From the NCBI GenBank assembly GCA_002710785.1, contig PAMC01000006.1:1-33320 (forward strand): 33,320 nt of DNA. Reading direction: 5' to 3'. Origin of the DNA: a bacterium (GTDB lineage: Bacteria; Patescibacteriota; Minisyncoccia; Phycocordibacterales; UBA918). The notes below the pieces were generated by a model. It ran no database searches and had not been told where the DNA came from. It saw nothing but the letters and a program-made list of their open reading frames with translations. Numbering within the stretch: position 1 is the first letter of the stretch; the number at the start of each line of letters is the position of its first letter. Below are positions 3,167 to 9,837 of the stretch, piece by piece. The position numbers and the translations under genes are program-made.

Positions 3167-4308
3167 TGATACTGAATATACACCGGTTCGGGATGCAATC
3201 GCAAGGCTTCGGCCGGCGTGTAGATGCCGGTACTCGGTGGTTTGAGATCGTTTTTGTAGAAGATCTTGAGTCCCACAAACTGCACCGGCTCTGGCTCAAT
3301 CACCCGAGTGTACGTGCCAAGTTTAAGCTCCTTCGAGCCCCATCCATCCATATGAATCACGACCTGCACCTCTGGTGTCGGCTGAATATCTTGGTAGTTG
3401 GTAACCATATTTTGGGTAAAGCGGTGTACCACAAGCACCTTTGGTGGTAGCTGATGCTCGCGCACAATCTCCGAAAGCCAGTTGATAGCGAAGTTAATAT
3501 CTTTAGCATCATACGTGCCAATCACCGTCGCTGGCGCTCGACCTGATGGCGCCATGGCAAACTCCGGGTCAATCCCGAGATGCACATCGGGGCGGGTAAA
3601 GTACTCTCGAAACTGCGGCAACTCCCGCTGAATGGTGCTTAAGCCCACCTGCAAATCAAGAAACAGAATACCGTCGATCTCCTGCGCCATGTCGTAGGCT
3701 AGCTCAATCTGGTCGGCCGGCATAACCGCGCGGTACATGCCGTCTTCGCCCGCATCAGCTTGCGCCACCATGGCAATGTAGTGTATGGCTGGTACGACTG
3801 GTGTGTCAGGGTCGGCTGCCTCCCAGGCAGCGGTGGTACTCGCCAGGCGATTGAGCACCGTCTGGCGGTCAAACTCACCCAAAATACCCATAAACCGAGA
3901 GTAGAAGTTACCGTAGTACGCTACGATGCGCTCAAATGGCAAAATGGCTCCGCCGTGCGGGTACAGATTCTCTGGTGGCCAGCGTTTCCCCCGCACGGTC
4001 ACGTTGCTGCTACTGGCAAATACTAGGTCGCTCACCAGCGGCGTCGAAGTAGAGGTGGTCGCACGCACGGGTGGCACGTAGTCGACCAAATCAAGCAAAC
4101 GAGCATTGTACTCCTCACGATCGAGCTCAAGCGGCCACACAATTGGTGCCATCTCACCCGTCGTTGTTGAGGTAGCAGCGACGCCATTCTGCACGGCCGC
4201 CAGTTTGTGGTACTCGACACCCGAAAACAGCGCGTGCCCGGCAGCGTAGAGACTGCCCACAATGAGCGTGGTAGTGGCTATCATCACGGCTAAGTAACCT
4301 AACGGCAT
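3163..4308 (-). CDS. Membrane-anchored/secreted hypothetical protein (381 aa)
   Basis: N-terminal hydrophobic segment then a long soluble domain; TACTAT 6 nt upstream of ATG. Confidence 0.8.
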   Translation of the reverse strand: MPLGYLAVMIATTTLIVGSLYAAGHALFSGVEYHKLAAVQNGVAATSTTTGEMAPIVWPLELDREEYNARLLDLVDYVPPVRATTSTSTPLVSDLVFASSSNVTVRGKRWPPENLYPHGGAILPFERIVAYYGNFYSRFMGILGEFDRQTVLNRLASTTAAWEAADPDTPVVPAIHYIAMVAQADAGEDGMYRAVMPADQIELAYDMAQEIDGILFLDLQVGLSTIQRELPQFREYFTRPDVHLGIDPEFAMAPSGRAPATVIGTYDAKDINFAINWLSEIVREHQLPPKVLVVHRFTQNMVTNYQDIQPTPEVQVVIHMDGWGSKELKLGTYTRVIEPEPVQFVGLKIFYKNDLKPPSTGIYTPAEALRLHPEPVYIQYQ

Positions 4309-8457: not shown

Positions 8458-8514
8458 GTCGACATACTACCGTACCTGCTTTATTTTCAAAACTAGTACG
8501 GTATAGTGATGATC

Positions 8515-8649
8515 TGAGAAGTGGCGGAATAGGTAGACGCGCGAATAAGGGTTTGTAGTAGTGGTACGCGCAGAGTAACCCCGAAAAACCCGGTAACCAG
8601 TCCAGCTCATAAGCGTACTGTTGTGAGGTGCAAATCCTCACCTTCTCGT
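8515..8649 (+). tRNA. Aberrant tRNA-Leu-like sequence, possibly interrupted or a tRNA-like leader
   Basis: TGAGAAG-TG-GCGGAATAGGTAGACGC (Leu-type acceptor and D-arm) and GTGAGGTGCAAATCCTCAC-CTTCTCG (T-arm and acceptor). The interior is about 50 nt too long and lacks a canonical anticodon arm. TATAGT at 8502-8507. Confidence 0.5.
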
Positions 8650-8658
8650 AATTTGTGT

Positions 8659-9837
8659 ATGCGAATTCTCTCCATTGAAACATCGTGTGACGAGACCGCT
8701 GTGAGCGTCGTGAGCGTTGGTGGCAAGTTTCCGCACGCTACGTATGCAGTAGCTGGCAACGGCCTGTACTCACAGAGTGACATTCACGCCGAGTTTGGTG
8801 GCGTCTATCCCACGGTCGCCAAGCGCGAGCACGCCAAGGCGCTGGTGCCGATGATGTACAAGGCGCTCGAGGAAGCCGAGCTGGTTAGCGAAGAGCCGAG
8901 CGAACTCAGCAAAGCACAAATGGGCGAGCTGGCGGAAATTATCATCCGTGAGCCAGAGCTCTACACGCAGCTCACACAGTGGGTCGAGCGCTTCGCTAGG
9001 CCCGACATCGACGTCATTGCCGTCACCACCGGCCCAGGCCTGGCACCAGCACTCTGGGTAGGGGTAAATTTTGCCAAAGCGTTAGCAAAAGTATGGGACA
9101 TCCCGGTCGTGCCGGTTAACCACATGGAAGGTCACGTGCTGGCGAGTATTTTTGACGTCGACCAAGACGATATGCTCTCTGACATTACCTTCCCCGCCCT
9201 CTCGCTTTTAATATCTGGTGGACACACTGAGCTGGTGCTGATGCAGAAGTGGGGTCAGTACGAAAAAATTGGCCAAACCCGCGACGACGCCGTCGGTGAA
9301 GCGTTTGATAAAGTAGCGCGCCTCATGGGCTTACCCTACCCCGGTGGCCCGCAAATAAGCAAACTGGCGCAAAAAGCGCGGGTAAAAGAACTGCCACCGT
9401 ACAAAGACGACTTGCCCCGTCCGATGCTCAATAGTGGCGACCTCGACTTCTCTTTCTCGGGCCTTAAAACGTCTGTCCGGTATGCACTTGAGGGCAAGGA
9501 GCTCTCTGAGACCGAACAAATGGCCCTCGCCCGCGACTTCGAAGACTGTGTAGCTGAAACCCTGATTGGTAAAACCAAGCAAGCCCTTGAGCAGACCGGT
9601 GCGCAAACCCTAATTGTTGGCGGTGGCGTCTCAGCCAACCAGTACCTGCGGACTCAGTTTGAACTAGAGCTCACAACCGAGTACCCCGAGCTTACCGTCT
9701 ACTTCCCAATGCCAGGGCTCTCGACTGACAACTCGGTGATGATTGCGCTCGCTGGCCACGCCAAACTCGACGGTAAGCTCGCGCCGCAAGCCGCCGTGGA
9801 GCTCCTTAAAGCCGACGGAAATAAGTCGTTGTCGTAA
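8659..9837 (+). CDS. tsaD: tRNA N6-adenosine threonylcarbamoyltransferase
   Basis: MRILSIETSCDETAVSVV, GGVYPTVAKREHAK, VNHMEGH, SGGHTELVLM, DDAVGEAFDKVARLMGLPYPGGP. The ORF start at 8623 lies inside the tRNA-like sequence. Confidence 0.97.
   Translation: MRILSIETSCDETAVSVVSVGGKFPHATYAVAGNGLYSQSDIHAEFGGVYPTVAKREHAKALVPMMYKALEEAELVSEEPSELSKAQMGELAEIIIREPELYTQLTQWVERFARPDIDVIAVTTGPGLAPALWVGVNFAKALAKVWDIPVVPVNHMEGHVLASIFDVDQDDMLSDITFPALSLLISGGHTELVLMQKWGQYEKIGQTRDDAVGEAFDKVARLMGLPYPGGPQISKLAQKARVKELPPYKDDLPRPMLNSGDLDFSFSGLKTSVRYALEGKELSETEQMALARDFEDCVAETLIGKTKQALEQTGAQTLIVGGGVSANQYLRTQFELELTTEYPELTVYFPMPGLSTDNSVMIALAGHAKLDGKLAPQAAVELLKADGNKSLS

Follow-up and report, generated by a model that had tools for sequence, protein, structure and literature searches.

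Directly 5' of tsaD, a CPR bacterial genome (G000; 822 kb in 19 contigs) carries an element of about 134 nt, a Leu-type tRNA body of acceptor, D and T arms that encloses about 80 nt of foreign RNA. As judged by comparative sequence analysis, this interior is a conserved pseudoknotted RNA domain; it recurs in well over 100 viral contigs, mostly inside same-strand tRNA arrays, and represents a large RNA family that is found in no Rfam entry. We consider it rather probable that the element is a stable structured RNA, probably acting in trans, that uses its tRNA body as a scaffold for processing and stability. Its features within the window (the whole stretch of 33,320 nucleotides analysed here) are listed in Table 1, and every piece that the initial annotation had described at 8502-8690 is present at its stated position.

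Table 1. Features of the tRNA-bodied element and of tsaD (positions in the window)
Feature	Positions	Strand	Remarks
Whole element	8515..8649	+	Leu-type tRNA body; phage-type RNA domain replaces anticodon and variable arms
-10 box TATAGT	8502..8507	+	putative ancestral tsaD promoter, now 7 nt 5' of the tRNA-like RNA
Acceptor 5' strand TGAGAAG	8515..8521	+	pairs with 8642-8648
Leu-type D arm GCG-GAATAGGTAGA-CGC	8524..8540	+	89-100% identity to the D arms of genuine tRNA-Leu genes elsewhere (other genomes)
P1 5' strand CGC	8540..8542	+	pairs with GTG 8561-8563; C8540 common to P1 and D stem
Strand A, conserved loop GAATAAGGGTTTGTAGTA	8543..8560	+	
Pseudoknot 5' strand GGGTT	8549..8553	+	pairs with AACCC 8577-8581
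P2 5' strand GTACGC	8564..8569	+	pairs with GCGTAC 8613-8618
P3 GAG	8573..8575	+	pairs with CTC 8606-8608
Strand B AACCCCGAAAAACCCGG	8577..8593	+	pseudoknot 3' strand (8577-8581) and conserved tail GAAANACCC
Strand C GCTCATAAGCGTAC	8605..8618	+	P3 3' strand, conserved WTARG, P2 3' strand
T arm GTGAGG-TGCAAAT-CCTCAC	8623..8641	+	6-bp stem; G where U55 is normal
Acceptor 3' strand CTTCTCG	8642..8648	+	acceptor and T stem give 13 stacked pairs versus the usual 12
tsaD	8659..9837	+	ATG 10 nt 3' of acceptor; neither terminator nor -10 box intervenes

The domain is built from three conserved strands: A (GAATAAGGGTTNNNAGTA), a loop closed by the helix P1; B, (G/C)AGNAACCCYGAAANACCC; and C, GCT(C/G)WTARG. 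Helices P2 and P3 connect strand C to the stretch 5' of B, and the pseudoknot forms between GGGTT in A and AACCC in B. The CTCATAA that had been taken for the anticodon loop of CAU tRNAs is instead part of strand C, the domain's conserved GCTC(A/T)TA(A/G)G strand. The strands follow one another as C-A-B in most enterobacterial phages and as A-B-C in CPR, Rhizobium and other copies, the two orders being circular permutations that leave a different helix open. An alignment of 23 sequences was rotated to one order and its linkers were trimmed by hand; in this set, from which the structure itself was derived, 94.8% of pair cells are standard, double changes occur at 10 of the 16 pairs, and the covariation score is 0.489 (0.126 when shuffled and at most 0.109 when slid). 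An unrotated alignment restricted to phage copies scores 0.834, against 0.220 when shuffled. Compensated forms of the pseudoknot are AGGTT/AACCT, seen in Morganella phage Rgz1 and in the CPR genome G390 (L126 and L360), and AGTCT/AGACT, seen in the second of two copies on viral contig L110; P1 is highly variable among phages; and P3 takes the form GAG/CTC, CAG/CTG (several relatives) or CTG/CAG (other CPR copies). The folding energy of the single sequence, computed without the pseudoknot, is unremarkable (z -0.61).

The element has all the hallmarks of this phage tRNA-array pseudoknot RNA, namely the A loop with P1, P2, P3, the A-B pseudoknot, the C strand and a match to the covariance model R1, which gives 72.0 bits for the G000 element and 72.6 for the copy in a second genome of the genus, G013. 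Since the R1 training set included the element itself and most listed members (and the model's E-values are rough), the independent link to phages is a blastn match: a sensitive search with the element found its interior in Rhizobium, Klebsiella and Proteus phages. Further support from outside the training set comes from later CPR matches and from B-pattern loci that had no part in it.

Carriers identified by pattern scans and further searches include T4-like phages (Mosigvirus mogra, FL31, PM2 and Morganella Rgz1), T5-like phages (My1, DU_PP_V, IME260 and Stubb), Vequintavirinae, the jumbo phages RaK2 and Hallingskeid, and many uncultured phages. Two B-strand patterns, which are exact and not saturating, match 114 and 116 viral contigs, and AAGGGTT stands just 5' of B in 137 of the scanned B matches. 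Annotated phage genomes have one copy each. Viral contig L110 has two copies, at 3201-3312 (-) and 3961-4058 (-), and also encodes a tmRNA and a tRNA-Leu-like gene whose interior is long and aberrant. Of the 131 distinct viral copies, tRNAs lie within 400 nt on both sides in 56, on one side in 24 and on neither in 51; all 491 tRNAs within 1.5 kb of viral copies share the strand of the copy, with 0 on the opposite strand. An earlier count placed a same-strand tRNA within 500 nt at 98 of 148 loci, as compared with 13.9% of random positions.

The outer scaffold that holds the domain is variously a plain helix, a tRNA body, a tmRNA or an intron. Four phage tmRNA genes contain it 3' of the tag frame (L156, L167, L245 and L321), and in Klebsiella phage VLCpiM5b two DNA polymerase frames are separated by a group I intron that has the domain inserted in its P6 (L100 2362-2666), the only one among the loci examined for a group I core with such an intron. 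The tmRNAs with the domain have unusual tags (EVEYAYAA, and the 26-residue DNAQIEANMNKVFSLLNEDVILGVAA). In a Clostridiaceae locus the copy abuts the CCA of a tRNA-Leu, within a tRNA array that also holds ROOL and a tmRNA; co-occurrence of these two RNAs with the domain is recorded at L118. In CPR genomes of another family the domain forms a separate small gene with no tRNA body. The G420 copy lies between murB and a peptidase gene (names read from the ORFs), has a TTGAAA-N17-TACAAT promoter match of a kind no more frequent than chance in a simple scan, and ends in a hairpin followed by T's, read from the sequence and unlisted by a simple terminator scan; the 3' end of the G390 copy is likewise a hairpin with a T-run. 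A further copy, in G790, has the exact phage-like strands GAAACACCC and GAGTACGCTG.

Within the genus, BLAST and the covariance model detected the element in only 2 of 38 genomes, G000 and G013, whose two copies are the sole tRNA-bodied ones known. The G013 copy occupies the same site, is tRNA-bodied, and is 85-86% identical to that of G000, a level above the nucleotide identity of either tsaD (66.6%) or the nearby tRNA-Val (68.9%) between the two genomes. Pairing is retained where the copies differ: in G013 the T stem GTGAGG/CCTCAC is replaced by GTATGG/CCATAC, with compensation at two pairs, P1 changes from CGC/GTG to CTC/GAG, the acceptor reads TGAGAGG/CTTCTCA, and P2 has changed as well. 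In the tsaD tree the sister of G013 is G024 (88% protein identity), with G000 distant; G024 is missing the element, which is therefore dispensable. Either the element is old and has often been lost, or it has moved between lineages and landed at the same site.

The preservation of the core over enormous distances, on outer scaffolds that are free to change and among varied neighbours, argues for action in trans on something conserved, and a role as a single-gene switch is disfavoured for the domain. We infer the following course of events in G000. Transcription from the tsaD promoter would take in the element, whose 5' end would be made by RNase P; tRNA 3' processing would split the element from a near-leaderless tsaD mRNA; and the tRNA body, as a natural maturation scaffold, would supply defined ends and stability. 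The domain, a decoy or modulator RNA that is carried by phages and has been retained by some CPR bacteria, would then act in trans by binding a widely conserved component that probably belongs to the translation or tRNA machinery. The choice of a translation or tRNA-machinery target is a guess, favoured by how strictly the domain keeps to the vicinity of tRNA genes and tmRNA. More tentatively, and with somewhat less than even confidence, we hypothesize that a very widespread and unlisted class of pseudoknotted RNAs acts in trans on conserved bacterial translation or tRNA machinery, that phages carry it in tRNA operons, tmRNAs and introns, and that CPR bacteria took it over as a gene of their own, which in one lineage is mounted on a tRNA.

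The most serious mechanistic rival is a small self-cleaving or self-processing ribozyme that would aid the cutting of tRNA transcripts and would here cut within the tRNA-like RNA. Hammerhead and twister ribozymes occur as circular permutations, as this domain does, and a compact pseudoknotted core with many invariant bases, situated in tRNA operons, would suit such an activity. We nevertheless consider a ribozyme unlikely: cleavage would do damage at two of the places in which the domain resides, tmRNA and P6 of a group I intron, the separate CPR genes have hairpin and T-run ends of their own, and the arm pairs that flank the domain stay intact. It is also unlikely that the domain is a small selfish or mobile RNA-gene insert, of no useful function and tolerated in structured RNAs. 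The permissive nature of its sites (tRNA operons, the tmRNA pseudoknot region and intron P6), its two permutations and its patchy presence are consistent with such an insert; the single copy per annotated phage genome, the conservation of the sequence core from CPR bacteria to T4-like phages, and the slower evolution of the element than of the adjacent tsaD and tRNA-Val speak against it.

The position of the element raises a further alternative. A TATAGT-like -10 box is found 6-14 nt 5' of the tsaD start in 24 of the 29 tsaD genes of the genus (chance expectation 0.6, from random upstream 24-mers), which supports the reading that the element occupies the site between the tsaD promoter and the start codon, at the tsaD promoter position. 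In G000 neither a -10 box nor a terminator lies between the element and the tsaD ATG, and because the element is located between promoter and ATG, tsaD transcription in this genome should run through it. The initial annotation had suggested a near-leaderless tsaD mRNA released by tRNA 3' processing: the promoter position that this calls for is borne out in G000 by the -10 data, and the processing itself is putative. Regulation of tsaD in cis, with the element as a leader and for example a tRNA-like sensor of t6A or of TsaD, would fit this placement, shared by G000 and G013, and the uninterrupted path to tsaD in G000. However, in G013 a strong terminator comes straight after the element and is followed by a new -10 box and then by tsaD; the element was not found 5' of tsaD in those other members of the genus that have readable upstream DNA; and the same domain is found in phages and CPR loci with no tsaD nearby. 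We therefore disfavour a general tsaD leader or t6A sensor, which had also been proposed for this site, and regard it as quite unlikely. That a tRNA can naturally adjoin tsaD is seen in G019, where a tRNA-Val gene ends directly 5' of the tsaD ATG (L047). Two other loci (L068 and L069) have a tRNA-Val and partial repeats of tRNA-Val upstream of tsaD.

The preferred reading, that of a structured RNA on a tRNA scaffold, is distinct from that of a tRNA in its own right. Although its acceptor, D and T arms are those of a tRNA (RF00005), with compensatory changes in G013, the element yielded no covariance-model score above the gathering threshold and no ARAGORN call, and no RNA was called there by ARAGORN or Rfam scans even at permissive thresholds. 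It is not a decoding tRNA, because it has no anticodon arm, has G55, and has an acceptor/T stack of 13 bp; from general knowledge of tRNAs, G55 and the 13 stacked acceptor/T pairs make ordinary use of elongation factor unlikely. Nor did the element show a group I intron (RF00028) catalytic core, a tmRNA (RF00023) model match with a tag-encoding frame, or, in Rfam scans of element and domain, a match to the ROOL or GOLLD models. The pseudoknotted domain is absent from Rfam 15, and neither its sequence nor descriptive phrases for it were found in the literature searched, so that an earlier description may exist elsewhere.

An intron-interrupted tRNA-Leu gene, with the interior spliced out as the initial annotation had inferred, would explain the tRNA-like ends and the excess interior length of about 50 nt, and is very improbable. 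Trial excisions of at least 25 nt in the interior gave no ARAGORN tRNA among 1653 for G000 and 1540 for G013, while a tRNA-Leu with an artificial intron was recovered in the control; a 5-bp anticodon arm with a 7-nt loop is present neither in the element, its flanking arms included, nor after any trial excision; and the interior, a conserved RNA, recurs at other loci with no tRNA ends around it. A spliced product is also not needed, the Leu set being complete without it: tRNA-Leu genes for TAA, TAG, GAG and CAA are all encoded elsewhere in the genome. A role for the element as a substitute for a missing tRNA-Leu was rejected in view of these ordinary genes. G000 also has an ordinary tmRNA elsewhere (at C15), and with its tRNA-Leu set this indicates that the element is not a disguised essential tRNA. 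Plasmid carriage was considered and rejected. A decayed tRNA gene, which would account for the failure to be recognised as a tRNA, the G55 and the 6-bp T stem, is exceedingly improbable, as compensatory changes retain the acceptor, T, P1 and P2 pairs, the copies are 86% identical over a large divergence, and no relative has a normal tRNA-Leu at the site.

Compared with known RNAs, the element resembles tRNA-Leu in its acceptor, D and T arms and differs from it in the replaced interior. It resembles tmRNA in having tRNA-like ends around pseudoknots, and some phage tmRNAs hold the very same domain; unlike tmRNA, it has a D stem, has no tag reading frame and is only about 134 nt long. Bacterial Y RNAs (YrlA) and engineered tRNA scaffolds join a tRNA module to another functional RNA module, and Rfam scans revealed no sequence relation between these and the element, which is a natural example of an RNA domain on a tRNA body. 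The small stable RNAs rnaC and rnaD of T4 are similar to it in lying in a phage tRNA cluster. They were rejected as members of the same family, as neither has the conserved A, B and C strands or matches the models. In T4 rnaC (species 1 RNA; L131 1409-1547 (-)), a long foreign interior is framed by a T arm and by a 3' end that resembles an acceptor, which makes it a further tRNA-bodied RNA of unknown function. ROOL and GOLLD are structured phage or prophage RNAs of unknown function that often occur near tRNA islands (PMC12286853); they are cages of about 600-800 nt, whereas the domain measures about 80 nt and lies within other RNAs.

One RNA module connects the tRNA operons of phages with tmRNA and with CPR genomes, and the family is relevant to a long-standing problem, the role of the orphan RNAs that lie in phage tRNA clusters. 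The function is open to immediate test, as phages of laboratory E. coli carry the family (Mosigvirus mogra and FL31 are recorded from E. coli K-12 MG1655). Deletions that allow escape from ToxIN fall in phage tRNA regions (PMC5449768); this was set aside as a functional lead, the Serratia phages concerned being absent among the matches listed.

Two other unusual tRNA-like genes were seen. In E. coli phage JLBYU43 (L120 22308-22442), an annotated tRNA-Phe(aaa) of 135 nt resembles a tRNA whose D arm is of the Leu type and whose interior exceeds the normal length by about 50 nt; it lacks the domain motif of the tsaD-upstream element. A second odd tRNA-like gene of G000 itself (C12:76417-76501, reverse strand; L094) has a class-II, Leu-like tRNA body with the anticodon GCC and a degenerate acceptor stem, is called as tRNA-Gly by ARAGORN, and scores only 33.6 bits.
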